From positions 4,226,881 through 4,290,880 of the forward strand of contig NZ_FXAM01000001.1 of assembly GCF_900155475.1 (NCBI RefSeq): DNA of 64,000 nucleotides, read 5' to 3'. Below, piece after piece: positions 15,623 through 43,320 of this stretch (position 1 is the first letter of the stretch; each line of letters starts with the position of its first letter). The notes beneath the pieces are model-generated. The model was not told where the DNA came from, searched no databases, and was given only the letters and a program-made list of their open reading frames with translations. Made by a program: the position numbers and the translations under genes. The DNA comes from Methylomagnum ishizawai (lineage in GTDB: Bacteria > Pseudomonadota > Gammaproteobacteria > Methylococcales > Methylococcaceae).

Positions 15623-18600
15623 TCACGCCCGTTCCAGGTTGAGCTTCAAGAGCCGCCCCAGGATTTCCGCGTCGGGCATGGCCTCCGTGTAGTCGGTCCA
15701 GCCGTAGGCAGCGGCCACGGCTTGATCCAAGGCTTTATGGGCGTTATCCAGCCAAGCGGGGCGGGTGTTGTAGAGGTTGGTCAGGGTGCGCTTTTTCAGG
15801 TCGGCTGCGTGGCCCGGCTTGGGGAGGATGCGGTCGGGATAGCCCGGCACCACTTCCGGCACGCGCTCGGTCCATTCGGGCGGGTTGAGCCAGCTTTCCC
15901 GCAATGCGTGCAGGCGCTTGGCGGCTTCGGCGATGGCGGGGAAAGCGGCGTCCGGGTTTTCGTGGGTTAGGACGCCTTCGGGGAAGGGGAAGGTTTCAAA
16001 GGTGGTGGTGGGGGTATAGCGTGGGTCGTTGCCGACGCCGTGCCAAGTACATACCGCTAACGACCATAACTCATGGAATCTTGAATGTAAAACCCCGAAA
16101 ATCGCATCGTCGGCGCGGGCGATGGCATATAATTTTTGATCCGGGAGAACAGCGGAATTCATCCAGGCGAATAAGCGATATTTTGCAACCTCTGGCGTTG
16201 CAATATACCTGGATAATCCACGCAAGGCGTCCCGCAAATCCGGGCGTGGACGGGCCAATCGCCACCAGCTCCGTGCTACGACCGCATCCCGGTTTTTTTC
16301 GCTGATGGGCTTTACAGTTCTGAGGACGTATTCATATGGAGCTTCATATAAAACCGCATTTCGCTCGTCCATGTTCACGCCGAAATCGATAACCCAAATA
16401 TCTCTGGGCCGTCGGGTTAAATCCAATCCATTCCATAATGGCCGTAAAACATCGCTATTTGGTTGACTATGAGGATTGGGCTGTTCGAGCCATGTGCGGG
16501 CTAATTCCCCTGGAATATCGAATGGCCCTTTTTTTGAGGCACCCATGAAGCATATTCTAAAATTTGTGCTGATGGGTTTGGCTTGAGTTAAATCCAGGTT
16601 TTCAGTCCCTTCCGATGCCGCCGTCAAATCGGAGTAGATTTCTTCGGCATATTTTCCATTTAAGCTTATTTTGGAAGCTTCTAGTTTGCGGCAAAACCCA
16701 ATCAGACTCACCCGCACCGCCGCGCCTTCGTTAATCCAAGGCTCATCGCTCCAAGCGTTGAAAATCGCCAGCCGGTTCAGAAGTAAGCCTTCAGCACCAG
16801 CGACGCCACGCCCGCCAGCAACATCCCCAGCATCCATTTCAGCACCGCCAAGTCGGTGCGGATCGGAGCCAGCGCCGAATCCAGGTCCGTTTTCGTGACC
16901 AGTTGATCCTGGGCTTTGGCGATGGCCCGCACCACCGCCTCGGCTTGCTCCTGCGGAATCCCGGCTTTTTTGAGCGATTCCGTCAATTCCAAGGTGTCGA
17001 AAGTTACCGTCGCCATAACGTCCTCCGTTGTGTTCCGCTTCGATTGTACCGTATAAAATCCGCTCCAAAACCTTCCGGTTCGCCCCGCCCCGGATACTAT
17101 TGGTCGAAACCAACCCGGCCCGCTGGGTTTTCCCCGCCGCGATCTGCGCCCGTGCCTTCTCGAACCAATAACAAACCAAATCGGCCCCACCCGGAACCCG
17201 GCCTTGATAACACGCCCGCAAACGGTGGGTATATTCCTCGCCAAGTGAACCCAACAATTTGGAACCACCCAAAAACGGCGGATTCCCGATAATCACATCC
17301 GCTTCCGGCCATGCCGCTTCGGTCCCGTCCGCGTTCAATACCGCGTCCCGCTGTTCGATGGTATCCAGCGGGCGCAGAATCGGATTCTTGGTCAGGTTAT
17401 AGCCATGCTGGATCATCCATTGGATTTCCCCAATCCACACCGTGACGCGGGCCAATTCCGCCGCATAGGGGTTCAATTCGATCCCGTGGACCGCTTCCGG
17501 CCCCACGGCGGGAAACTGCCGGGGCAAACCCAAGGTTTCCGCTTCCAAAATGGCTTGGTGTTCCAAGTCCTTCAAGGTTTGCAAAGCCAGATACAGGAAA
17601 TTCCCCGAGCCACAAGCCGGGTCGAGTACCCGGAAATTCTTCAAGCGTTCCAGGAAACCGATATAGGCTTTCTGCGCCTTGGTCCGGGCTTTGGTTTTGT
17701 CCTTCTGGATGTCCGCCTTGACCGCTTCCCATTCGGCCAATAAGGGTTCCCGGATCACCGGATCGACCAAGCGCATAATGGATGCCCGGTCGGTATAGTG
17801 CGCCCCCAACTGCGAACGCTTGGCCGGGTCCAAGCCCCGTTCAAACAGGGTGCCGAAAATCGCCGGTTCGATGGCGCTCCAATCCAGGCGCGACAAGGCC
17901 GATAGCTGCTTGAACTCCGCCCCGGTCAAGGGCAGGGTGTCGGCATCGTTGAACAGCCCGCCGTTGAACCAATCGATGATGTCCACCCCGAAATCCCCGC
18001 CTTCCGCCATGGCCTGGAACAGGTTCTTCAACAGCGAAGTTCCACGGTCTGGATGCTTGGCGGCATTTTCCAACAACCGGGAAAACAAAGCCTTGGGCAA
18101 CAGGTCGCAATCTTCCGCGAACAGGCAGAACAACAGCCGGTTGAGGAAATGCGCCACCCGGTGCGGCTCGAAACCGCGCTGGTGCAGCGCCAGGGCCAGC
18201 GCCGCGAATTGTTCCGCCGCCGCCCGCGTCAAGCCTTCGCGGGTTTGGCCGGGCCGCAGGCGTTCCGGGTCGGTGAAGGCCCATTTCAGCTTTTGCCGGG
18301 CTTCCGGCTGCCGCAGATCGTCCAGGGCGATGGCGTGGGTTTCCTGTACCGCGTTGGTGAAGGCGGTATGGATCACGAGGGTTTCCAGGTCGGACACGAT
18401 CAACAGCGGCGGCGATTGCAAGGCCAGCGCGTAGCCCTGCAACTGCTTCAGGGCCGCTTGCAGGTCTTTCCCCTTGCCCTTGTACTCCCAGCCGAAACAC
18501 CCCTTCCGCCACACATCGGCCCAACCATCGCCGCCCCCGGTTTTCTTCGCGCCCTTCTCGAAACAAAACCACAGCCCGTCCGGGTCGGCTTCGTTGGGCG

Positions 18601-18727
18601 TGGCTTCGCCCAATAACCGGCACAGGTCGATGAAATGCTCTTGGGCGGCGGATTTTTCCTTGGTCTTGGCGGCTTGCCACTTTTGGATGAAGGCTTCGGG
18701 GGTCATGGTGCCTCGTGCGATGGTCAT
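15623..18727 (-). CDS. MmeI-like fused restriction-modification enzyme, interrupted in frame
   Basis: This is a single-chain type IIL/IIG enzyme. An N-terminal nuclease region has the E-X-K motif in FGWEYKGKGK (about residue 80). A helical linker precedes the adenine methyltransferase with motif I DPACGSGNFL (about 370) and motif IV IIGNPPFLGG (about 480). The target-recognition and C-terminal part ends at 15623. Between GGANRKVLERI and LAIFNAWSDEPW the family runs almost directly on. Here about 93 Gly/Arg-rich residues intervene, encoded by an inserted DUF1640 gene read in another frame. The insert keeps the frame open, so a 1034-residue product is possible, but activity is doubtful. The target-recognition part (16.0-16.7 kb) is visibly more AT-rich. 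A second start is the ATG at 18706. Confidence 0.8.
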   Translation of the reverse strand: MTIARGTMTPEAFIQKWQAAKTKEKSAAQEHFIDLCRLLGEATPNEADPDGLWFCFEKGAKKTGGGDGWADVWRKGCFGWEYKGKGKDLQAALKQLQGYALALQSPPLLIVSDLETLVIHTAFTNAVQETHAIALDDLRQPEARQKLKWAFTDPERLRPGQTREGLTRAAAEQFAALALALHQRGFEPHRVAHFLNRLLFCLFAEDCDLLPKALFSRLLENAAKHPDRGTSLLKNLFQAMAEGGDFGVDIIDWFNGGLFNDADTLPLTGAEFKQLSALSRLDWSAIEPAIFGTLFERGLDPAKRSQLGAHYTDRASIMRLVDPVIREPLLAEWEAVKADIQKDKTKARTKAQKAYIGFLERLKNFRVLDPACGSGNFLYLALQTLKDLEHQAILEAETLGLPRQFPAVGPEAVHGIELNPYAAELARVTVWIGEIQWMIQHGYNLTKNPILRPLDTIEQRDAVLNADGTEAAWPEADVIIGNPPFLGGSKLLGSLGEEYTHRLRACYQGRVPGGADLVCYWFEKARAQIAAGKTQRAGLVSTNSIRGGANRKVLERILYGTIEAEHNGGRYGDGNFRHLGIDGIAQKSRDSAGASRGGGAGHRQSPGSTGHENGPGFGAGSDPHRLGGAEMDAGDVAGGRGVAGAEGLLLNRLAIFNAWSDEPWINEGAAVRVSLIGFCRKLEASKISLNGKYAEEIYSDLTAASEGTENLDLTQAKPISTNFRICFMGASKKGPFDIPGELARTWLEQPNPHSQPNSDVLRPLWNGLDLTRRPRDIWVIDFGVNMDERNAVLYEAPYEYVLRTVKPISEKNRDAVVARSWWRLARPRPDLRDALRGLSRYIATPEVAKYRLFAWMNSAVLPDQKLYAIARADDAIFGVLHSRFHELWSLAVCTWHGVGNDPRYTPTTTFETFPFPEGVLTHENPDAAFPAIAEAAKRLHALRESWLNPPEWTERVPEVVPGYPDRILPKPGHAADLKKRTLTNLYNTRPAWLDNAHKALDQAVAAAYGWTDYTEAMPDAEILGRLLKLNLERA
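16777..17016 (-). CDS. DUF1640-type small coiled-coil membrane protein inside the RM gene
   Basis: The 79-residue product starts ATVTFDTLELTESLKKAGI, continues with a coiled coil (QEQAEAVVRAIAKAQDQLVTKTDLDSALAPIRTDL region), and ends in one membrane helix (MLGMLLAGVASLVLKAYF). This is the usual DUF1640/CCDC90-like plan. A strong Shine-Dalgarno sequence (GGAGGACGTT) precedes the ATG, so it is a real gene with its own initiation signal. It lies wholly within the MmeI-like gene on the same strand in another frame. The foreign segment spans roughly 16772-17062. How it entered is not visible; I see no terminal repeats of an insertion sequence. Confidence 0.75.
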   Translation of the reverse strand: MATVTFDTLELTESLKKAGIPQEQAEAVVRAIAKAQDQLVTKTDLDSALAPIRTDLAVLKWMLGMLLAGVASLVLKAYF

Positions 18728-19096: not shown

Positions 19097-20326
19097 TCAG
19101 CCCGGCAAATCCCGGAAGCACGCCGTCAGCCAGTCCCGCAACTTGGCCTCGTCCCCGAGCAGGTGTTCGATGAACTCGGCGGTCTTCCGGGTTGCGAAAC
19201 CCGGCGCGTCCACCTTGGCCCGCAATCCGTGCGACAGGGCGTTGCGGAGGTTCTTGAGGGTGATGAAGTTGCCGGGGGCTTGGGGGTTCAGGCGGTCGTC
19301 CTTGGTGCGTTGCTCCAATTCCATCTCGGCGTCCTGCCGGTCCCGGTCGTAGTGGCCGGGATCGCCCCGGTTCCCGATCACCCGCCCGGAAATCCGCGCC
19401 TCGAAGCCGAATTGCGCGGCGCGGAGGTAGTCGCCGCGTTCCAGGTAGTTCCGGGCCAGCCGTCCCTCCCAGGCGGCGCGGTCGCGACCCCTGCGCCAGT
19501 CGATGCGCTGTTCGAGGACCGGCAGGAACAGCCGCCCCGCCGGGCTGGCCGGTTCGCCCTGGTCCTGCATGAAGGAATCCAGCTTGCGCTTGGCGTTGGG
19601 GGCGACCGCCACCCGTTCCAGGAACGCCGCCTCGGTCAGTAGATCGCCGCGCAGCCCGTCGGCTTGCAGCAGTCCGCCGAACACCCCGTAATCCCCGTCC
19701 TTGTTGAAGCATTCCAGCGCCCTGAGCCATTCATACAGGTTCATCAGGCCGTCCAGTCGCAGCGCCGGGGTAGCACCTTCGCGTTCGCGCTCGTAGGGCG
19801 CGTAGTAGATGCCGCCGACCTCCGCTCCCGCCACCGCCCGCAGGTAGAACGCGCTGATGAGCCCCAGCATCGGCAGGTGGCGCAGGCCGTGGGTCACGTC
19901 CAGCAACAGGCGGTCGCCCGGCCCGAAGCCCTCGGCCAGGATGCGGAGGATTTCGACCTGTCCGCGCTCGTCCGCGCCGTAGGGGATCAGCCGCAGTTGG
20001 TGGCGGGGTCGGCCCGGACGGTCCAGCAACGGGGCCACGGCATCCAGGTGGTCCTGGGTCACGGCGTCGGCGGCCACGGCCCGTTCCAGGGCGTCCCAGG
20101 CCGGGGAATCGATGGAATCCGGTTCCAGCTCGACCGACAACACGTCCCACATGCTCCCGGCGGTGCCGAGGATGCGGAGGGTGTCGGCGGCGTGGTGGCG
20201 GGTCAGGGCCAGGGCGAAGAACGGGGTTGCGTAGGTTTGGCCGTCCAGGTCGTAGGCGGTGGTTTTATAAGTGCCGCCTTTGTCCTTGGCGACCTTGCCG
20301 AGGAAGCTGACGAGGATTCGGGCCAT
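19097..20326 (-). CDS. CARF-HEPN ribonuclease of the TM1812/TIGR02221 (Csx1/Csx2) type
   Basis: The 409-residue protein starts MARILVSFLGKVAKDKGG, the typical start of the TM1812 family. The N-terminal CARF domain (about 1-210) includes a cyclic-oligoadenylate pocket region (LLLDVTHGLRHLPMLGLIS). The C-terminal part carries the HEPN R-X4-H motif in LRNALSHGL (about 360). Such proteins are RNases switched on by cyclic oligoadenylate from Cas10. I chose the ATG at 20326; the longer open frame has no matching features. It lies 4 bp after a small membrane protein gene and is the last gene of the locus. Confidence 0.85.
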   Translation of the reverse strand: MARILVSFLGKVAKDKGGTYKTTAYDLDGQTYATPFFALALTRHHAADTLRILGTAGSMWDVLSVELEPDSIDSPAWDALERAVAADAVTQDHLDAVAPLLDRPGRPRHQLRLIPYGADERGQVEILRILAEGFGPGDRLLLDVTHGLRHLPMLGLISAFYLRAVAGAEVGGIYYAPYEREREGATPALRLDGLMNLYEWLRALECFNKDGDYGVFGGLLQADGLRGDLLTEAAFLERVAVAPNAKRKLDSFMQDQGEPASPAGRLFLPVLEQRIDWRRGRDRAAWEGRLARNYLERGDYLRAAQFGFEARISGRVIGNRGDPGHYDRDRQDAEMELEQRTKDDRLNPQAPGNFITLKNLRNALSHGLRAKVDAPGFATRKTAEFIEHLLGDEAKLRDWLTACFRDLPG

Positions 20327-20330
20327 GGGG

Positions 20331-20543
20331 TCACTCCGGGGTGGAATCGTCGCGGTCCTGGAACTCGGCGTCCAGGAAGTCGCCGACGCGGACCCGCTTG
20401 AGCGGGGCTTTCTGGGTCGCGATCTTGCAGGCCAGGGCACCGGCCACAGTCACGACGCTGAGCGCCAAGGCGGCGGCGGGATTGAGCGGGATGACGACGA
20501 TACGGGCGGCTTGCAGCAGCAAGGGGACGGCGGGAACGGGCAT
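20331..20543 (-). CDS. small membrane protein upstream of the CARF-HEPN nuclease
   Basis: The 70-residue product is hydrophobic over its first 45 residues (LLLQAARIVVI, then AAALALSVVTVAGALACKIA), enough for one or two membrane helices. It has a charged C-terminus (RVRVGDFLDAEFQDRDD). A good Shine-Dalgarno sequence (GGAGGACTCC) precedes the ATG and the stop is 4 bp before the nuclease start, so the two are likely co-translated. It has its own palindromic operator 64 bp upstream. I do not recognise the family. A membrane-linked helper of the signalling arm is possible. Confidence 0.6.
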   Translation of the reverse strand: MPVPAVPLLLQAARIVVIPLNPAAALALSVVTVAGALACKIATQKAPLKRVRVGDFLDAEFQDRDDSTPE

Positions 20544-20606
20544 TGTGGAGTCCTCCGGTGTGGCGATGGGGAGATTGTCCGCGTTCCTGCCCGTCGTGGC
20601 TGGGTA

Positions 20607-20618
20607 CACAAGCTTGTG
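20607..20618. promoter_or_regulatory. palindromic operator CACAAGCTTGTG (site 1)
   Basis: A 12-bp perfect palindrome lies in the 84-bp gap between crn2 and the small membrane protein gene, about 70 bp upstream of the latter's ATG. The same core occurs at 22521-22536 and 32728-32741 at similar distances from starts. Confidence 0.6.
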
Positions 20619-20627
20619 GGGATGGGT

Positions 20628-20948
20628 TCAGGCGAGGCGGGACAGCAGGCCGAGTTGCCAGGGCAGGCGGGCCAGGGCGGCGTGGTCCAGCGCGGCCCCT
20701 TCCGGGAGGCGTCCGAGCAGGCGGAACACCAGGGCTTGGTCGCCCGGTGCCAGGGCCACCTGGACCCGGCGGGCTTCGACCGGATGGCCCAGCAGTTCGC
20801 CCAGCAGCGCCGCCGTGGCCGCGTGGCCGATGGCCGACACCACCTCCGGCCCGGCCCAGGCGCGGGCTTGGTCCAGCGACAGCGGCCCCTCGAACCGCCA
20901 CAGGCCGAAATCCGTCAAGACCGGGCTGTTGAGCAAATATTTCCGCAT
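20628..20948 (-). CDS. crn2: ring nuclease Crn2 (DUF1874, AcrIII-1 family)
   Basis: The 106-residue protein starts MRKYLLNSPVLTDFGLWRF and carries the family signature SAIGHAATAALLGELLG, whose His corresponds to the catalytic His of AcrIII-1 enzymes, then VEARRVQVALAPGDQALVF. This family (STIV B116, viral AcrIII-1, host Crn2) degrades cyclic tetra-adenylate. Its presence in a Cas10 locus with a CARF-HEPN nuclease fits a host off-switch; a viral anti-CRISPR captured by the island is the alternative. The ATG at 20948 lies 14 bp beyond a degenerate CRISPR repeat, with Shine-Dalgarno AAGGGA between. The gene therefore appears to be read from the array 1 leader. Confidence 0.88.
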   Translation of the reverse strand: MRKYLLNSPVLTDFGLWRFEGPLSLDQARAWAGPEVVSAIGHAATAALLGELLGHPVEARRVQVALAPGDQALVFRLLGRLPEGAALDHAALARLPWQLGLLSRLA

Positions 20949-20962
20949 TTTGCTATTCCCTT

Positions 20963-21068
20963 CGGTTAATCCCTTCAATAACAGGACATCATTCAGACAA
21001 TCCATTTCCACCCGCTTCGCCGACAGCAACCAGTCTTAATCCCTTCAATAACAGGGCATCATTCAGAC
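20963..21068 (-). CRISPR. CRISPR array 1: two repeats, one spacer
   Basis: The repeats lie at 20963-20998 and 21033-21068 (36 nt each) around a 34-nt spacer. The second is identical to the array 2 consensus. The first, distal to the leader, is degenerate in four bases at its crRNA-handle end and has GGACATC for GGGCATC. Transcribed from the leader on the right, the repeat begins GTCTGAATGATGCCC and ends GAAGGGATTAAGAC, giving an 8-nt handle ATTAAGAC of the usual type III kind. crn2 follows directly. Confidence 0.93.
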
Positions 21069-21200
21069 CGACCCCCCCTAAAAACCCGCCTGGAATCAAC
21101 GACTTACAGAGGGGGTTCACACTCGTCCCGGCCCGCTTGCCGGAACTTTTTTCACGCCATCCCTTGACTTTTGCCATCTCCTTGATTTTGTTGGCGAGGT
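21069..21200 (-). promoter_or_regulatory. CRISPR leader 1
   Basis: About 130 bp to the right of array 1 match the sequence to the right of array 2 (23488-23617) at nearly every position. Examples are ACCCCCCCTAAAAACCCGCC next to the repeat and TTTTTTCACGCCATCCCTTG further out. Such conservation beside two arrays identifies the leader and its promoter, so both arrays are transcribed leftward. cas2 ends just beyond it at 21223. Confidence 0.85.
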
Positions 21201-21222
21201 CGCCACCTCCCGCCCGCATAGC

Positions 21223-21501
21223 TTACACCACCCAGGTATCCGCCAAGGCCACCGCCCGCCCGAGGCTCCGGGGCCGGGCGGCATCGCGCAGGGCGAAGGC
21301 TTGCAGCTTGTCCTCGGCGGGGTCCAGGTATTCCCCCAACCGCCGCCACACCCGGTCCAGCTCGGCCTGGGTCAAGTCCGCCACGAACACCGACTTCTGC
21401 ACCGGCAAGGCCACGTCCCGCAGGTCGCGGAACGCCCGCCGCAAACGTTTGGGGTCGGCGATGTCGTAGCAGATCAAGACCGGGCGGCGCTCCCGGCTCA
21501 T
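21223..21501 (-). CDS. cas2: CRISPR adaptation protein Cas2
   Basis: The 92-residue protein carries the Cas2 start VLICYDIADPKRLRRAFRDL with the conserved Asp, then VQKSVFVADLTQAELDRVW, and a ferredoxin-like fold ending in DTWVV. Cas2 is the structural partner of Cas1 in spacer integration. Its start overlaps the cas1 stop by 4 bp (ATGA). Confidence 0.95.
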   Translation of the reverse strand: MSRERRPVLICYDIADPKRLRRAFRDLRDVALPVQKSVFVADLTQAELDRVWRRLGEYLDPAEDKLQAFALRDAARPRSLGRAVALADTWVV

Positions 21502-22448
21502 GGCGCGGACTCCGCCGGGGCGGGCAACAGGGCCGCGAACCGCCGGGCGTAGCCCCGCAACACCCGCCGCCAGACCCGCAGTTTTTCATGGGCCGCCTCG
21601 TAGAACACCGCCTGGGCGTGGTGCCGCAGCAGGCAAGCGCCGTCCTCGACCTGGAAATGCTCGCGGCGCAGGGTTTGGGCGCGGAACAACTCCCACACCC
21701 AGCCCTCGACCGCCGGGCGCAAGGGTTCCACCAGGTCCGAGGCCAGGGCGTCCTGGCCGTGGCTGGGTTCGTGGAAACCGCCCAGCATCGGATCGAGCCC
21801 CGCCACCCGCGCCGCCCCGGACGCTTCCGCGTGCAGCAGGGTGTAGCCCAGCGACAGGCAGGCGTTGACCGGATCGGGCGGCGGACGCCGCCGCCGTCCC
21901 TCGAAGCCCAGGGCCGGGGCGAACAACTGGCCATAGCCCTCGAAAAACGCCGCGCCCGCCGCCCCCTCGATACCGCGCAAGGAAGCCAAGGACCGGCCTT
22001 CCGTTTCCGTGGCGAGGCGCTGTTCCAGGGCTTCCAGCCGCCGCAGCACCGGACCCAGCCGCAGGCCGGGACGTTCCTCCCGCGCCCGCGCCAGCAAGGC
22101 CCGTTGGCGCTGGACCTTGAGCGCCACCACGCCCCGCGCCCAGCGTTCCCGCAGTTGCGGCTGCTGGAACAGGGCGTATTGGGCGAGGCGGCGGCGGGCG
22201 TCGCCGTGGCGGTAGGCGACCAGTTCCGCCGTGCGTTCCGGGTGGCGGTGGTTGAGAACCAGCAGCGGCACGCCGTGCTGGGCCAGGAGGCCGAGGACTC
22301 CCGCGCCCAATTCCAGCCGTGGCCCCACCACCACCCGCTCCAGTTGCCGGACCGGGACCGAGCGTTTGCGCCCGTCCTCGTCGCGGATCAATAGCGAAGC
22401 CCGCTCGTAGCCGAGCGACAAACCGGGACGGTCCAGGATCAACAACAT
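21498..22448 (-). CDS. cas1: CRISPR integrase Cas1
   Basis: The 316-residue protein has an N-terminal beta domain (LLILDRPGLSLGYERASLLI) and a helical catalytic domain. Candidate metal ligands are the Glu in RGIEGAAGAAFFEGY and the His and Asp in GGFHEPSHGQDALASDLVEP. Length and motifs are typical. A strong Shine-Dalgarno sequence (GGAGGTAAAC) and an upstream palindrome (22521-22536) suggest that cas1-cas2 has its own promoter, separate from the effector operon. Confidence 0.95.
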   Translation of the reverse strand: MLLILDRPGLSLGYERASLLIRDEDGRKRSVPVRQLERVVVGPRLELGAGVLGLLAQHGVPLLVLNHRHPERTAELVAYRHGDARRRLAQYALFQQPQLRERWARGVVALKVQRQRALLARAREERPGLRLGPVLRRLEALEQRLATETEGRSLASLRGIEGAAGAAFFEGYGQLFAPALGFEGRRRRPPPDPVNACLSLGYTLLHAEASGAARVAGLDPMLGGFHEPSHGQDALASDLVEPLRPAVEGWVWELFRAQTLRREHFQVEDGACLLRHHAQAVFYEAAHEKLRVWRRVLRGYARRFAALLPAPAESAP

Positions 22449-22520
22449 GTTTACCTCCGCATTTTGCCGTGATGGAAACCACGGGGCTTATTAGACGCCT
22501 ATCGGGGGCGGGCGGGAGGT

Positions 22521-22536
22521 TTCACAAGCTTGTGAA
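22521..22536. promoter_or_regulatory. palindromic operator TTCACAAGCTTGTGAA (site 2)
   Basis: This 16-bp perfect palindrome is centred about 80 bp upstream of the cas1 ATG. It is the longest of three sites sharing ACAAGCTTGT in promoter regions of this locus. Confidence 0.65.
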
Positions 22537-22628
22537 CGGTGGGGAGGTATTCCTGCGGGTTAGGGCAGCCTCCGGGCCAAAATCCATTCCAGACCGAAAG
22601 CAGCCCTCTTGGCAGAGATGCGGGGCGT

Positions 22629-22652
22629 GTCTTAATCCCTTCAATAACAGGG
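22629..22652 (-). repeat. truncated CRISPR repeat behind the HTH gene
   Basis: The 24 bases match the handle-side two thirds of the array repeat exactly; the other 12 bases are absent. It lies 11 bp after the stop of the HTH gene. With the full repeat at 22964 it brackets that gene, so the gene sits inside what was once array sequence. Confidence 0.8.
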
Positions 22653-22663
22653 AACCAAAAAGC

Positions 22664-22951
22664 TCACGCCGCGCTATTCAATTCCAAACGGAAATGCAGC
22701 CCGGTTTTTGCGGCCAAGGTCAATAGTCTATCCAAGGTGAATTTCTTCCATTTGCCGCGCACGAGATCGGCTATCCGCGCCGGGGTCACGCCCAGGCGCT
22801 CGGCGGCTTCGGCCTCGGTCAAGCCGCTATCCCGGACCCAAAGCGCCAAATGGTTCATCAGGTCGGAGCGCAGTTGCAGGATTTCCGCCTCGTGGGGTGG
22901 GAAACCCAAGGCCAGGAATAGGTTTTCACCGGCTTTGACGGTTTCGGTCAT
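22664..22951 (-). CDS. XRE/HigA-like HTH protein at the tail of array 2
   Basis: The 95-residue protein contains a Cro/C1-type helix-turn-helix (LTEAEAAERLGVTPARIADL, then VRGKWKKFTLDRLLTLAAKTG), as in HigA-2-type antitoxins and small XRE regulators. No toxin gene adjoins it. Its ATG at 22951 lies 12 bp beyond the degenerate last repeat of array 2, and its Shine-Dalgarno sequence (AAAGGGGAAG) partly overlaps that repeat. It is the obvious candidate, untested, for binding the ACAAGCTTGT palindromes in this locus. An orphan antitoxin is the alternative. Confidence 0.8.
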   Translation of the reverse strand: MTETVKAGENLFLALGFPPHEAEILQLRSDLMNHLALWVRDSGLTEAEAAERLGVTPARIADLVRGKWKKFTLDRLLTLAAKTGLHFRLELNSAA

Positions 22952-22963
22952 GGCTTATCTTCC

Positions 22964-23487
22964 CCTTTAATCCCTTCAATAACAGGGCATCATTCAGACT
23001 CATTCTAAGAATTCAAATGGATATGAATATTGGTCTTAATCCCTTCAATAACAGGGCATCATTCAGACTAAAGCAAGAAGAAACATCGGTGGTATCTTTA
23101 CAGTCTTAATCCCTTCAATAACAGGGCATCATTCAGACCCAACGTCACCTTGAGTGCCTTGAGTACCTTGGTCTTAATCCCTTCAATAACAGGGCATCAT
23201 TCAGACGCCTACGATGCGCTGAACATGACGGGAGTGGTGCGTCTTAATCCCTTCAATAACAGGGCATCATTCAGACAGGTCGTCATGGTGATAAGCGGCG
23301 GAGTGTGGTTGTCTTAATCCCTTCAATAACAGGGCATCATTCAGACCTGATTGTGCTGGACTATGTGTTAGAACAGATAGGTCTTAATCCCTTCAATAAC
23401 AGGGCATCATTCAGACACTAGCTGATAAAAACCTTGTTGCAGAATTAATTCGTCTTAATCCCTTCAATAACAGGGCATCATTCAGAC
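22964..23487 (-). CRISPR. CRISPR array 2: eight repeats, seven spacers
   Basis: The 36-nt repeats start at 22964, 23033, 23103, 23171, 23241, 23311, 23381 and 23452, with spacers of 32-35 nt. The leader-distal repeat (22964) is degenerate at its handle end (reading ATTAAAGG instead of ATTAAGAC); the others are identical. The array is transcribed leftward from the leader at 23488 onward. The HTH gene follows the distal end. Confidence 0.97.
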
Positions 23488-23617
23488 CGACCCCCCCTAA
23501 AAACCCGCCTGGAATCAACGGTTTACAGAGGGGGTTCACACTCGTTCCGGCGATCTTGTCGGAACTTTTTTCACGCCATCCCTTGACTTTCGCCATCTCC
23601 TTGATTTTCCTGGCACA
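23488..23617 (-). promoter_or_regulatory. CRISPR leader 2, overlapping the 3' end of cas6
   Basis: It is nearly identical to leader 1. Its outer 47 bp form the last 16 codons of cas6 (ENQGDGESQGMA), so the two features share DNA. This suggests that the leader and array were joined onto cas6 by recombination and altered the Cas6 C-terminus. Confidence 0.8.
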
Positions 23618-24536
23618 GCCGATAACGGCCCAAGCCGAAACTGGCATTCTTCCCCAGGTGCGTCCACTGCCCGGCGGCTAGCAGCCCCGCGAACGGGGCC
23701 AACGCTCCCCGCAGTGTAACCCGTCCCAGCACGCCCCCCAACACCATCTCTTGCCGCTGCCGACTGGAAAAGCGCCGCCAATCCCGCCAGCGCAATTCCC
23801 CCGTCAACTCCACCGCCCCCGCCAGCCCGCCCAGCCCGGCGAAATCCACGGCGGGCTCCGCCGCCTGGTGGAACTCGGCCAGCAGCCAATAGCGCCGCGC
23901 CAGGGCCATCAACACATCGCGGGCGGTCATGGCGTGGCCGCGCACCCCGCCCGCCGCTTGCAGCCGCAGCGGGGTCTCGAACTCGACCACCGCCCTGTCC
24001 GCCAACGCGGGCACCGGCACCGGAGCCACCGCCGGGGCCGACAGCCCACCCTCCGCGTACACCCGTTGCTCGCTCCCGTCCGGCCCCACATAGGTCACGG
24101 CATCCAAGCGGACATGCCCCCCGCCCAAACCGCCGGGCCGTTCCAGGGCGCGTTTCCAGGCGTACACCACCAAGGGCAGATGGCGCAGGGCGCGGCCCAT
24201 CAGCACGCAATGGAACCCCAGCGCCGCGCCCGCCGGATAGTCCCGCGCCCCTAGCGGCGGCGGCTCCACCACATACGGGTTCGGCACCTGGCTGAAGCGC
24301 TGCAAGCGGTGCCGCTCCGGCGCGGGGGTCTCGAAAATCTCGGGATAGGCGCAACTGCGGTACAGCGGGCAGGCGTGGCAATCCTGCTGCCGGGTCACGC
24401 AGGCCGTGCGCCGCAGGGCATGGCCGAACGCCCCCCGCAATTGCGATCCGGCGTAATAGTGCAGGTGGATCGGCGCTTCCACCGTGCAATCCAGGCGGAA
24501 ACGGGCCAGTTTCAGGGGCAGGGGTAGGTCGGTCAT
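23571..24536 (-). CDS. cas6: CRISPR endoribonuclease Cas6
   Basis: The 321-residue Cas6/RAMP-type protein is expected to cut pre-crRNA within the repeats. An N-terminal ferredoxin-like part (FRLDCTVEAPIHLHYYAGSQ, LRGAFGHALRR) includes a Cys cluster (CVTRQQDCHACPLYRSCAY). The C-terminal Gly-rich loop is NASFGLGRYRL, characteristic of Cas6 with this Cys cluster. The final residues after GRYRL are encoded by leader sequence and are probably not ancestral. It overlaps csm5 by 4 bp. Confidence 0.88.
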   Translation of the reverse strand: MTDLPLPLKLARFRLDCTVEAPIHLHYYAGSQLRGAFGHALRRTACVTRQQDCHACPLYRSCAYPEIFETPAPERHRLQRFSQVPNPYVVEPPPLGARDYPAGAALGFHCVLMGRALRHLPLVVYAWKRALERPGGLGGGHVRLDAVTYVGPDGSEQRVYAEGGLSAPAVAPVPVPALADRAVVEFETPLRLQAAGGVRGHAMTARDVLMALARRYWLLAEFHQAAEPAVDFAGLGGLAGAVELTGELRWRDWRRFSSRQRQEMVLGGVLGRVTLRGALAPFAGLLAAGQWTHLGKNASFGLGRYRLCQENQGDGESQGMA

Positions 24537-28313: not shown

Positions 28314-28700
28314 TCAATCTTTTGGGCGCACTTGCTTGTAAAAGCCCATGAAGGCTTCCCAGAACAGTTTGCAGTGGGTCAGGGTCTTGGCGTCCTGTAC
28401 TTGGCCGAGAGTGTGGCCCATCAAGGCCACGAAATCCGGGTTCACAAGCTTGCGTCCCTCGGCATAGGCGGCTTTGGCGTTCACCATGCGGATGAACGGC
28501 AAATATTCGGCGAACTTATCGGGTTGCTGGCCGACACGGGTTTCCCACAGCACGATTTCATCGTAGAAACGGCGTAGTTGGGTGGGTTTATTGGTGCGCT
28601 CATCCCCGGCTATTTTTTCGGCTTTCTCTTTTGCCACATCGCTGAACAATCCGGGATTCAATGAACCGCCGAATTGAACGTCATCGGTAATCTTTGCCAT
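28314..28700 (-). CDS. csm2: type III-A small subunit Csm2
   Basis: The 128-residue, mostly helical protein contains the Csm2 pattern TNKPTQLRRFYDEIVLWE, a middle helix with a Lys (VNAKAAYAEGRKLVNPDFV), and the C-terminal FWEAFMGFYKQVRPKD. Csm2 forms the inner filament of the complex. A good Shine-Dalgarno sequence (GAGGGGAAAAC) precedes the start. It follows cas10 by 9 bp. Confidence 0.92.
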   Translation of the reverse strand: MAKITDDVQFGGSLNPGLFSDVAKEKAEKIAGDERTNKPTQLRRFYDEIVLWETRVGQQPDKFAEYLPFIRMVNAKAAYAEGRKLVNPDFVALMGHTLGQVQDAKTLTHCKLFWEAFMGFYKQVRPKD

Positions 28701-31536: not shown

Positions 31537-32667
31537 TCAGGCGATATGGATTTGGATAGTGTTCGGGTCGATGCCGTAGTCGCTGTAACCACGCCTACCC
31601 CGATTATTAATTCGGAAATTTTGGGCTAGGCGCTCGCCGAGTTCGTTGTTCAAAATCCCGTTGATGCGGGCGATTTTTTCATTGAAGAACCCCGTTTTCA
31701 TGCCGTCCTTCATGGCATCGTCGGTTTTCTCCGTGCCCCGCTCATCGCCAACCACGCCTTCGTAGATACTCTGGAATTCTGCGGCGTACTCATAGCGGTT
31801 GCGCCTGTCCGCTTCCGGCTTTGGCAGCGGCTTTTCGTTCAGCACGGTGCGAGTAACGACCCAGAGATAAAAAGCGAACAGGCTGGGCGGCAAGGCGACG
31901 GCGATTCCGTTGGCGCGTAATTCACGGGCGGCGCGGTCGATGACCAATTCCGGCGCTTCGTGGGCGCGGCGGGCGAGGTCGATGGTTTCGCTGAAACCGG
32001 CCTGCCCATTGAGCAAGCGCCCTGGAATGTCGTCGCGCAGCCGGATGAAGGGGATTTCCGCCAGGATGACCTCGGCCTGTGAGGTGTCCAGGGGCCGGGG
32101 ATGGTCCCCGCGTGTATGGATGATCTGGCTGGCGGGGGTCGGGTAGAAGAATTCCGGGTGGCTTTCGTAGTCCGGCGTCACCAGCACATGGGAGAGGCGG
32201 TCCTGCCGCCGCCCGAACAGGGAAAGCGCGTAGCCCGCGTAATAGCCCATGGTCTTGCGCCCCCCGGCGATGGAGACATGCAGCGCCGCGTCCGGGTCCA
32301 GCGTGTACTGGCGGATGGCCTGGGCGATGTGGTCGGCCAGCCATTCGTTTTCCTGGGGGGTGCGGATGTCGTCCAATCCGTTGCCCTCGCGGTCGTGGAC
32401 GACATGGATGTTCCCGGCGTCGAAGGCGATTGCGGGCAATCCGTAATCCTCGCACAGCCGGTGGAACTTGCCGGTTTCCGGTTGGAGCAGGCTGAGGCGT
32501 GCCCGGTGGGCACCTTCCCGCGTGGTCAACAGGTGGATTTCGGTGGGCACGAATCGCGGCTCGCCCGCGACCGCCAGCGCGTACAGGGTCTCGGTCAATA
32601 TCTGGGGGCTGAGGCCGCACACGGCGACCAGGATGCGGCGGGGGAAATCTTTGGGTGAATGGTACAT
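31537..32667 (-). CDS. CARF protein of the Cas_NE0113 (TIGR02584, Csm6-like) family
   Basis: The 376-residue protein has a Rossmann-like CARF domain: ILVAVCGLSPQILTETLYAL, then VHDREGNGLDDIRTPQEN and the ligand-pocket segment HVSIAGGRKTMGYYAGYAL. The C-terminal half (about 200-376) is helical and basic, but I find no R-X4-6-H HEPN motif in it. It may therefore be a ring nuclease or a sensor rather than an RNase, although the family is often annotated Csm6. It is the first gene of the effector operon, 13 bp before cas10, with Shine-Dalgarno CAGGAA and an operator 60-75 bp upstream. Confidence 0.82.
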   Translation of the reverse strand: MYHSPKDFPRRILVAVCGLSPQILTETLYALAVAGEPRFVPTEIHLLTTREGAHRARLSLLQPETGKFHRLCEDYGLPAIAFDAGNIHVVHDREGNGLDDIRTPQENEWLADHIAQAIRQYTLDPDAALHVSIAGGRKTMGYYAGYALSLFGRRQDRLSHVLVTPDYESHPEFFYPTPASQIIHTRGDHPRPLDTSQAEVILAEIPFIRLRDDIPGRLLNGQAGFSETIDLARRAHEAPELVIDRAARELRANGIAVALPPSLFAFYLWVVTRTVLNEKPLPKPEADRRNRYEYAAEFQSIYEGVVGDERGTEKTDDAMKDGMKTGFFNEKIARINGILNNELGERLAQNFRINNRGRRGYSDYGIDPNTIQIHIA

Positions 32668-32727
32668 CGCTACGTTCCTGTGTGGGGTGGGTGGAAGTGT
32701 AGCGATTCAGCGGCGTGGCGCGGTATA

Positions 32728-32741
32728 TGACAAGCTTGTCA
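32728..32741. promoter_or_regulatory. palindromic operator TGACAAGCTTGTCA (site 3)
   Basis: A 14-bp perfect palindrome is centred about 67 bp upstream of the first gene of the effector operon. It shares ACAAGCTTGT with sites 1 and 2. Confidence 0.65.
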
Positions 32742-32938: not shown

Positions 32939-32960
32939 GCACGGATCGAAGCGAAGGGCG

Positions 32961-34117
32961 GGCCGGTGCCCTGGTGCGGTGCCAGGAAGTAAGCCTTGCC
33001 GGAAGTAGCCGATGAAGGTTCCCTTGGTTCCCTGGAATGGAAGAATTCGATACTTCCCCATTTTGACTTTCCACCTCCGAACGCTGTCCACCCGGCTATC
33101 GGCTTGCGTGTTTTTGCTTCGCGGCTGGATTTCGCTTTTTTCGGAGGGAACCGGGGGAACCCAGGGAACCGCCTTGATTGGCGCGGCTTCCGGCGGTTCC
33201 CTCTGATTTTCGAGTGAGGGAACCCAGGGAACCACGCAGCGGAACCTGGACGACGGGGCGGGCTTGGTGCCGGGCTGGAAACCAGCGGCCCAGCGCCGGG
33301 CGTTCCGCCGTGGTTGTAAGCGCGGGTCGAGGTGGAAGGCGGGCGGGTTTGCTCCTGGTGCTGGCCGATGAAGCTCTGGCCGGGTGAACCGTGGGCCGGT
33401 GCCCTGGTGCGGTGCCAGGAAGTAAGCCTTGCCGGAAGTAGCCGATGAAGGTTCCCTTGGTTCCCTGGAATGGAAGAATTCGATACTTCCCCATTTTGAC
33501 TTTCCACCTCCGAACGCTGTCCACCCGGCTATCGGCTTGCGTGTTTTTGCTTCGCGGCTGGATTTCGCTTTTTTCGGAGGGAACCGGGGGAACCCAGGGA
33601 ACCGCCTTGATTGGCGCGGCCTCCGGCGGTTCCCTCTGATTTTCGAGTGAGGGAACCCAGGGAACCACGCAGCGGAACCTGGACGACGGGGCGGGCTTGG
33701 TGCCGGGCTGGAAACCAGCGGCCCAGCGCCGGGCGTTCCGCCGTGGTTGTAAGCGCGGGTCGAGGTGGAAGGCGGGCGGGTTTGCTCCTGGTGCTGGCCG
33801 ATGAAGCTCTGGCCGGGTGAACCGTGGGCCGGTGCCCTGGTGCGGTGCCAGGAAGTAAGCCTTGCCGGAAGTAGCCGATGAAGGTTCCCTTGGTTCCCTG
33901 GAATGGAAGAATTCGATACTTCCCCATTTTGACTTTCCACCTCCGAACGCTGTCCACCCGGCTATCGGCTTGCGTGTTTTTGCTTCGCGGCTGGATTTCG
34001 CTTTTTTCGGAGGGAACCGGGGGAACCCAGGGAACCGCCTTGATTGGCGCGGCCTCCGGCGGTTCCCTCTGATTTTCGAGTGAGGGAACCCAGGGAACCA
34101 CGCGGCGGAACCTGGAC
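32961..34117. repeat. 433-bp tandem repeats (two full copies and a partial third)
   Basis: Units start at 32961, 33394 and 33827, with a period of exactly 433 bp. The copies are almost identical (for example GCGGCTTCC against GCGGCCTCC). The third diverges after about 34106. Each unit contains one GGTTCCC hairpin module (33142-33235, 33575-33668, 34008-34101) and a CCTGGTGCGGTGCCAGG motif. Long open frames run through on both strands, but 433 is not a multiple of 3, so any frame changes from unit to unit. I treat this as non-coding repeat DNA. Confidence 0.85.
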
Positions 34118-34216
34118 GGCGGGGATGGGCTTGGTGTCGATGCCGGTCAGGAGGCCAATGGCTAGCGCCGGGCGGGCCGGTCTCGTTGTCAATCTCCTTG
34201 GCGCTGAGGAGATTGG

Positions 34217-40208: not shown

Positions 40209-40470
40209 GGGAAGGCTCCTGTTTTGAGGTTTGGAGCCACCAAGCCGCTTTCCTACGGCGGAATTGGTGGCGACTGGTTCGGGGGTAGGAAATACCGGCA
40301 AACAGGAACCGGCCAGGCCGAAGCCTGCCCCGCACCAGCCGCCATAGGTGAACGCCGGGCAAAGAAAAAGCGCCCGGCTATGGCGCTTGTGCGCCTGTTT
40401 AAAAGCGGGTTTCCTACGCCCGGCCCCGGATGCGTCCGAAGCGCGGATAGGTTGCCGTGCCGGGAACTGG
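40209..40470 (-). ncRNA. structured leader upstream of the replication operon (candidate)
   Basis: This AGGAG-proximal leader contains several hairpins on the minus strand, including GCCGGGC..GCCCGGC around 40343-40369 with a T-rich loop and AGGCTTCGGCCT around 40315-40326. P4-like elements regulate their replication operon by a structured leader or CI-type RNA in this position. The analogy is inference; no transcript boundary can be read from the sequence. Confidence 0.35.
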
Positions 40471-42923: not shown

Positions 42924-43320
42924 GGTGTGCCCCTCGCAAGGCCCAATCCCGCAATAAAGGAGCCGCGCCACTGGGTTGCGAGTGTTCCCAGGTTCGCCCG
43001 GCCAAAGGCTAGGCGCGGCTGTTCGGTGGAATCGGTGTGTGTTCGGTAAACCTCTGTTTCGTGTGTGCGGCCCGCGCCCTGGCGCAGCCCCAGGAAGGCT
43101 AACCATCCCCGACCCATGGTTTCCTCGGTTCCCTCAGCCGAAAATCGGAGGGAACCGCTGGAAGCCTTGCCAGCCGTGGCGGTTCCCTTGGTTCTCCCGG
43201 TTCCCTCGCGAAAAAGCAAAATCCAGCGCACACGCCGGAACCACAAAACCCCATAGGCTGGCTATTGCCATCAGAAGAGGCAACCTATAATTTTTATAGG
43301 TCATAATATGGAATGGTGCC
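42924..43320. other. intergenic region with GGTTCCC module 43117-43208
   Basis: No gene is seen between the divergent unknown gene and the toxin-like gene. It contains one plus-oriented hairpin module (43117-43208) and a CGCCCTGGCGCAGCCCCAGG motif of the same repeat family. The AT-rich end (ATAATTTTTATAGGTCATAA, 43287-43306) looks like the promoter of the gene at 43321. Confidence 0.55.

Follow-up and report, generated by a model that had tools for sequence, protein, structure and literature searches.

We propose, with a probability of about one half, that the ring nuclease gene crn2 of a type III-A CRISPR locus in Methylomagnum ishizawai is transcribed by read-through of a one-spacer mini-array lying in a cas1-cas2 unit, and that a short palindrome recurring at this locus, here called the CRISPR box, is the operator of an NE0113-family protein or of a related CARF regulator. 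The evidence comes from a window of 64,000 nt (the whole stretch of DNA that was analysed) and from comparison with other genomes. We regard the box, a prediction from sequence, as a more valuable result than the junction between the array and crn2.

Gene order and the CRISPR box

Read along the minus strand, the locus begins with the NE0113-family gene (31537-32667), which is the first gene of the csm operon and our candidate regulator, and continues with cas10/csm1, csm2, a RAMP gene in the csm3 position, csm4, csm5 (whose profile match falls slightly below its cut-off) and cas6 (23571-24536; PF10040). The last codons of cas6 overlap leader 1, behind which come the main array (22964-23487; eight repeats and seven spacers, the final repeat without its GAC), a small HTH_37/XRE gene (22664-22951; PF13744) and a 24-nt 3' repeat fragment (22629-22652). 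Then follow cas1 (21498-22448; PF01867), cas2 (21223-21501; PF09827; stop at 21223), a second leader (21069-21195), the mini-array, crn2 (20628-20948; PF08960), orf70 (20331-20543) and csx1 (19097-20326; TIGR02221), which encodes a CARF-HEPN effector of the Csx1 type. The presence of Cas10/Csm1, Csm2, RAMP genes, Cas6, Cas1-Cas2 and an array with a leader identifies the locus as type III-A. The product of orf70 is a small hydrophobic protein with no convincing family match; its gene lies 4 nt upstream of csx1, and the protein might serve the effector as a membrane partner. A 433-bp tandem repeat (2.7 copies, 99% matches, 32960-34136) lies immediately upstream of the csm operon.

The palindrome CACAAGCTTGTG lies 10 nt past crn2, ahead of orf70-csx1 (20607-20618, minus strand), and 27 nt on from it is a -10-like hexamer, GACAAT (20574-20579). 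A second copy precedes cas1 (22523-22534, minus strand), again with a -10-like hexamer 27 nt on (TCTAAT, 22490-22495), and the variant GACAAGCTTGTC stands upstream of NE0113-cas10-csm (32729-32740, minus strand), with TACACT (32696-32701) at the same distance. CACAAGCTTGTG occurs at four places in the 5.48-Mb genome, all of them within its two CRISPR loci, whereas the reversed control occurs nowhere. For ACAAGCTTGT there are seven places genome-wide against two for the control; five are in the CRISPR loci, including the one at the csm operon, and the other two are inside ORFs (RimM-like and BatD-like by eye) with no -10 at 27 nt. The second CRISPR locus (C1:2305264-2318104; L047, L048) carries the same boxes and contains an NE0113 gene, a DUF1874 gene and two arrays, together with a membrane gene with a CARF motif and Cmr-like ORFs, the latter recognised by eye. 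A degenerate copy of the box, CACAAGCTTGGG, precedes the CARF-membrane-crn2 pair of that locus, and the searches returned no gene match for the second-locus site at C1:2314374. With the degenerate copy included, five of the six CRISPR box sites have a match of at least 4/6 to TATAAT at 27 or 28 nt and the sixth has 3/6 at 27 nt; the hexamers are weak (3 to 5 of 6), and no -35 is recognisable. One further copy of CACAAGCTTGTG with a single mismatch is found inside csm2 (28443-28454), and both array leaders of the window are free of the box.

The comparison with relatives extends this pattern. NE0113 matches were obtained in 40 of 151 relatives, 38 of them over the family cut-off (own genome counted), and CACAAGCTTGTG itself occurs once each in five other genomes of 38. 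Of the 31 loci, 15 (two of them in the own genome) have the core CAAGCTTG no more than 250 nt upstream of NE0113, often within longer palindromes, and the other 16 lack it in that interval. The next-best 8-nt palindrome upstream reaches 3 of 31, but the comparison is inflated: 10 of the 15 boxes lie at a fixed place in the protein, within the last codons of cas6, where they read [A/T]-S-L-P, so that the recurrence is owed in part to common descent and to the protein sequence. Within the first 250 nt of the NE0113 gene the core occurs in 1 of 31 loci. Ten of the 15 upstream boxes are followed, at 27 or 28 nt, by a -10-like hexamer. Among the 16 cas6 tails found, 11 bear the box (L095, L096, L099-L101, L103-L107 and L049), and the AGC-TTG codons are identical in all 11 although the genomes belong to more than one family. 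This identity exceeds what the protein requires, and the box is apparently a regulatory site that has been retained in coding sequence.

A box was called clear when a -10-like hexamer follows it at 26-28 nt and it is not crossed by a same-strand ORF of 100 aa. Clear boxes precede NE0113 in a Rhodoferax (L021), cas10 in G047, cas6 in G540 and cas2 in G512, and the families of all four genes (cas6, cas2, cas10 and NE0113) were confirmed; the degenerate box before the CARF-membrane-crn2 pair of the second locus is another, and G033 has a clear palindrome between divergent cas6 and membrane-protein-crn2 genes. Boxes also precede cas6 in G015 and G026, but there longer ORFs span the box. Sites in G026, G540 and G517 were rejected as boxes ahead of Cad1-type genes, as they are inside the genes and are probably coding; they too have a -10-like hexamer, and the Cad1-type gene of G540 was confirmed to combine a deaminase with a CARF domain. 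In some of the 16 chosen genomes that were searched, GCAAGCTTGCC is frequent outside CRISPR loci; over eight genomes (G067, G033 and six genomes with no NE0113 match being omitted from the count), 20 of 60 sites fall no more than 20 kb from NE0113, where 0.64 would be expected. We give this figure little weight because seven of the 20 had already been known, several are situated in cas6 ends and three or more are inside other ORFs. In the open-licence literature, searched by title and abstract, we found no report of CAAGCTTG as a CRISPR operator.

NE0113 as the candidate regulator

The protein encoded by the first gene of the csm operon matches TIGR02584 at 243.4 bits (cut-off 80.65). Its structure model has a mean pLDDT of 87.9, and the C-terminal part modelled alone reaches 89.6. 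The CARF part aligns with Cad1-CARF (Z 14.7, rmsd 3.0, 163 residues) and with Crn1 ring nucleases (Z about 13). In the full model the C-terminal part aligns with VanR (Z 8.6, rmsd 2.5, 89 residues); searched alone, it retrieves almost exclusively PhoB/OmpR-type DNA-binding domains among the 50 entries listed, with fits to BaeR (Z 9.2, rmsd 3.0, 100 residues) and to PhoB-DNA (Z 8.5, rmsd 2.7, 95 residues). NE0113 is thus predicted to join a CARF domain to a PhoB/OmpR-type winged helix, and this predicted architecture is the reason why we consider it a candidate regulator. NCBIfam, unlike this regulator reading, names the family a ring nuclease Csm6. A 2014 paper predicts direct regulation of transcription by Csa3 and NE0113 (PMC4012209); the NE0113 family treated there is that of the window protein, and the passages that deal with it name no operator.

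Based on these observations, the most likely role of the box, a CAAGCTTG core followed at 27-28 nt by a -10-like hexamer, is to serve NE0113 or a related CARF regulator as operator, and a cyclic-oligoadenylate signal would then set the transcription of cas1-cas2 (with crn2), of csx1 and of the csm operon. That some other regulator binds the box in place of NE0113, either the product of the HTH_37 gene that follows the main array or a different CARF protein, seems to us somewhat unlikely. An HTH_37 gene does lie within the locus, and G033 has boxes without an NE0113 gene among the matches listed, its cas6-end box preceding a CARF gene of family PF09651. Against this stand the occurrence of the box upstream of NE0113 in the 15 loci noted above and in a Rhodoferax, and the predicted DNA-binding domain of NE0113 itself.

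The assignment of the box to NE0113 or a related CARF regulator can be taken further, to a bacterial CRISPR regulon in which NE0113 reads cyclic oligoadenylate and binds CAAGCTTG 27-28 nt before the -10 elements of type III genes, with crn2 expressed through an array. We put this forward tentatively, at somewhat short of an even chance. The modules of such a regulon would be csm or cmr, cas6, cas1-cas2, csx1 and CARF-membrane-crn2, and the palindrome in the last cas6 codons of many relatives would be an internal promoter element for NE0113. In the window, crn2 would have left the box-controlled unit of the effector and come to be expressed through the CRISPR array behind cas1-cas2. The off-switch and the effector that it silences would then answer to different promoters, orf70-csx1 having a box-bearing candidate promoter of its own and crn2 belonging to a separately controlled unit.

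The transcriptional switch-on of bacterial type III immunity is largely an open subject. In the passage that bears on this point, a 2022 review gives archaeal Csa3, a transcription regulator, as the sole non-nuclease CARF effector to have been characterised by experiment (PMC9704534). A palindrome at fixed spacing, whose 12-base form occurs nowhere in this genome but in its two CRISPR loci and which precedes a gene predicted to encode a CARF-winged-helix protein, turns the matter into a testable question. According to the portions of a study of Sulfolobales that are drawn on here, a CRISPR-associated promoter palindrome (CAPPa), TCCCN8GGGA, is generally missing from other promoters, and Csa3a bound the palindrome only non-specifically and independently of cA4 (PMC8699464), which weighs against the operator role proposed here. 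The system described here resembles the one outlined in those portions in that a CARF domain is joined to a winged helix (for NE0113, by model only) and a palindrome stands at CRISPR-related promoters. It differs in being bacterial, in its core CAAGCTTG, which does not fit the CAPPa sequence, and in the winged helix of NE0113, which is of the PhoB/OmpR type and is carried on a Crn1/Cad1-like CARF domain. In addition, our box precedes effector, interference and adaptation genes, and is found in neither of the array leaders of the window. The box system may therefore work like a regulon of the Csa3/CAPPa type without being a member of that group.

crn2 and its mini-array

The product of crn2 (106 aa) is a DUF1874/STIV B116-like putative ring nuclease and belongs to the DUF1874/Crn2 family (PF08960, 67.2 bits, cut-off 26). 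Its nearest PDB chain is AFV3-109 (6.1e-10), and STIV B116 is matched at 6.8e-6. H42 and E83 are invariant in all nine aligned proteins, and R80 is also among the invariant residues; we assign H42 and E83 as catalytic on the assumption that H47 and E88 are the catalytic His and Glu of AcrIII-1. The protein is labelled Csx16 by PADLOC (109 bits), which we take as a difference of naming, and has no match in NCBIfam. With the own genome counted in both samples, 15 of 201 relatives carry DUF1874, and a draw of 398 genomes from the phylum gave two that do; a 2025 survey, in the part concerned with this family, reports Crn2 in only seven loci (PMC12409355). The window gene shares with known Crn2 and AcrIII-1 (DUF1874, PF08960) the family match, the GH and E motifs and a place in a type III locus that also encodes a Csx1 effector. 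It differs from known Crn2 and AcrIII-1 loci in standing directly behind a CRISPR array.

The first-pass annotation had read this junction as leader, full repeat, spacer, degenerate repeat, 14 nt with a Shine-Dalgarno sequence and the crn2 ATG, and the order is exact on the minus strand. The full repeat (21033-21068) is identical to the seven full repeats of the main array, the sole spacer (20999-21032) is 34 nt long, and the degenerate terminal repeat (20963-20998, as read from the sequence) has C changed to T at repeat position 13 and its final GAC replaced by CCG. The 14-nt gap (20949-20962) contains the Shine-Dalgarno sequence AAGGGA (20957-20962), 8 nt ahead of the ATG at 20948, and the distance from the cas2 stop to this ATG is 274 nt. 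Two results argue that the repeats of the mini-array are not due to chance: the repeat core occurs in 11 copies in the window (at most two mismatches) against 0.29 expected from shuffles, and the second leader with its repeat is identical at 153 of 163 positions to the segment 23452-23614, which comprises the tail of cas6, leader 1 and the first repeat. As this match reaches into the last cas6 codons, the leader and repeat that stand between cas2 and crn2 are a segmental copy of the cas6-leader-repeat junction; we infer that copying ran from that junction to the place between cas2 and crn2. Leaders resembling those of the window are also found at arrays in G026 and G015.

The arrangement at crn2 was not seen elsewhere. 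At the 24 other DUF1874 loci (19 cellular and five on viral contigs, with only 228 nt of upstream sequence for L062 and 872 nt for L063, and a match without a start codon in L064), no array was detected less than 1 kb upstream, in a scan that misses a lone isolated repeat where no array is detected. The closest arrays upstream were at 1020 nt in G521 and at 1121 nt in the second locus of this genome; in that second locus and in G101, crn2 instead follows a gene with the CARF-type motif DxTGGxK. Within the loci compared, the window has the only array-crn2 junction. No report of an array serving as the 5' UTR of a ring nuclease was found in the open-licence literature searched by title and abstract.

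The main array has a similar junction: its terminal repeat ends in ATTAA without the GAC, and the HTH gene starts 12 nt on. By eye, an ORF of at least 60 aa within 20 nt behind an array is present at both arrays of the window and at none of 13 other arrays, a count in which some array ends are uncertain and which excludes the misoriented minus-strand array of L048, the duplicates L031/L058 and L032/L059, and a contig-end array (L058). Terminal repeats without the GAC occur elsewhere as well (L013, L054). The HTH_37/XRE gene lies between the GAC-less terminal repeat and the 24-nt 3' repeat fragment (22629-22999, minus strand) and has 21 nt of repeat on either side, as if inserted in the last repeat; alternatively, the stretch has the look of one very long spacer.

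Where the crn2 transcript would begin

It had been noted that no separate promoter is visible for crn2. This is literally true and carries little force, as the sigma-70 scan of 20300-23800 found no promoter at all (0.4 expected), missed the box promoters too and, being blind even to the leaders, cannot discriminate. The scan for terminator-like sites, a consensus scan without power in this sequence, lists none on the minus strand from cas2 to crn2. Since no promoter of its own is seen, no terminator-like site is listed and the upstream genes are co-linear, read-through of the mini-array would be the simplest source of the crn2 mRNA. Transcription could equally originate at the candidate promoter ahead of cas1. 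In the window, crn2 sits upstream of the csx1 box and has no box of its own, and the first box met on going back from its ATG, after 1575 nt, belongs to cas1; this supports the membership of crn2 in the cas1-cas2-array unit. We therefore picture crn2 as the putative distal gene of a co-linear unit consisting of cas1, cas2, the leader, the repeat, the spacer and the worn repeat, with its mRNA arising by read-through from the box-bearing candidate promoter before cas1, from the copied leader, or from both. Behind crn2, csx1 has its own candidate promoter, carrying CACAAGCTTGTG.

A more specific proposal is that the leader promoter yields a pre-crRNA that includes crn2 and that Cas6, cutting the last repeat, frees an mRNA with a 22-nt 5' UTR and a 5'-OH, so that crn2 tracks crRNA processing. 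If Cas6 released the mRNA in this way, the off-switch would be tied to crRNA processing, as the first-pass annotation had suggested. The geometry of that suggestion is exact: a cut 8 nt before the repeat end places the RNA start at 20970, 22 nt upstream of the ATG, and both this position of the 8-nt tag and the good Shine-Dalgarno sequence favour the proposal, as does the presence of the same junction, with the HTH gene, at the main array. The proposed tie to Cas6 fares poorly in other respects. For the full repeat, the predicted fold is a two-stem hairpin of -9.2 kcal/mol (z -2.7), and the HTH-side terminal repeat still reaches -7.0 kcal/mol (z -1.3), whereas the crn2-side repeat, at -4.1 kcal/mol and z 0.06 with an unpaired centroid, no longer has the outer GUCU/AGAC stem and keeps the inner one in weakened form, although an inner hairpin could yet form as UCCU/AGGG. 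There is no structural switch at the start site of crn2, as no special structure hides it in the uncut RNA that runs from the worn repeat into crn2 (z +1.0), and the Cas6-cut product shows no special structure either (z -0.2). Furthermore, the 24 other DUF1874 loci are without a detected array within 1 kb (two having less than that available), GAC-less terminal repeats are ordinary here, and not just the off-switch but also the csx1 effector lies downstream of the mini-array, which we count against a specific link between crn2 and Cas6. Some Cas6 enzymes accept weakly structured repeats, and for this reason cleavage of the worn repeat is possible; Cas6 may trim the crn2 transcript, and nothing indicates that crn2 is controlled thereby. 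That such cleavage governs translation of crn2 is possible on geometry, and nothing else predicts it. We thus consider release by Cas6 unlikely, and the junction looks like a local accident of array duplication.

The read-through origin of the crn2 mRNA would also have to yield if crn2 had its own promoter of an unrecognised type, inside the spacer or the terminal repeat. A scan that is powerless here and misses leaders and box promoters leaves room for such an element, but 97% of 500 shuffles contain a hexamer pair at least as good as the best one upstream of crn2, and a spacer is by nature variable; we consider this decidedly improbable. The source of the spacer was sought among phages and plasmids to E 10, where partial matches only were obtained (23 and 30 records, none covering 80%), and no exact 22-mer was found in viral contigs. 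CreR-like elements have a single spacer flanked by a good repeat on one side and a worn one on the other, a shape that the mini-array shares, but a regulatory guide of this kind to a neighbouring promoter or mRNA, with crn2 beside it by function, is scarcely credible here, as the longest exact match of the spacer within the window, on both strands, is 11 nt against 8-12 nt for the seven ordinary spacers.

Two further features were seen elsewhere in the window. Rfam matches to C4 antisense RNA and int-alpA RNA at 40263-40349 and 42948-43019 (both minus strand) suggest a prophage or satellite element. A large ORF resembling a restriction methylase (15623-18727, minus strand) has, by eye, a middle part that looks like another frame, a possible frameshift.
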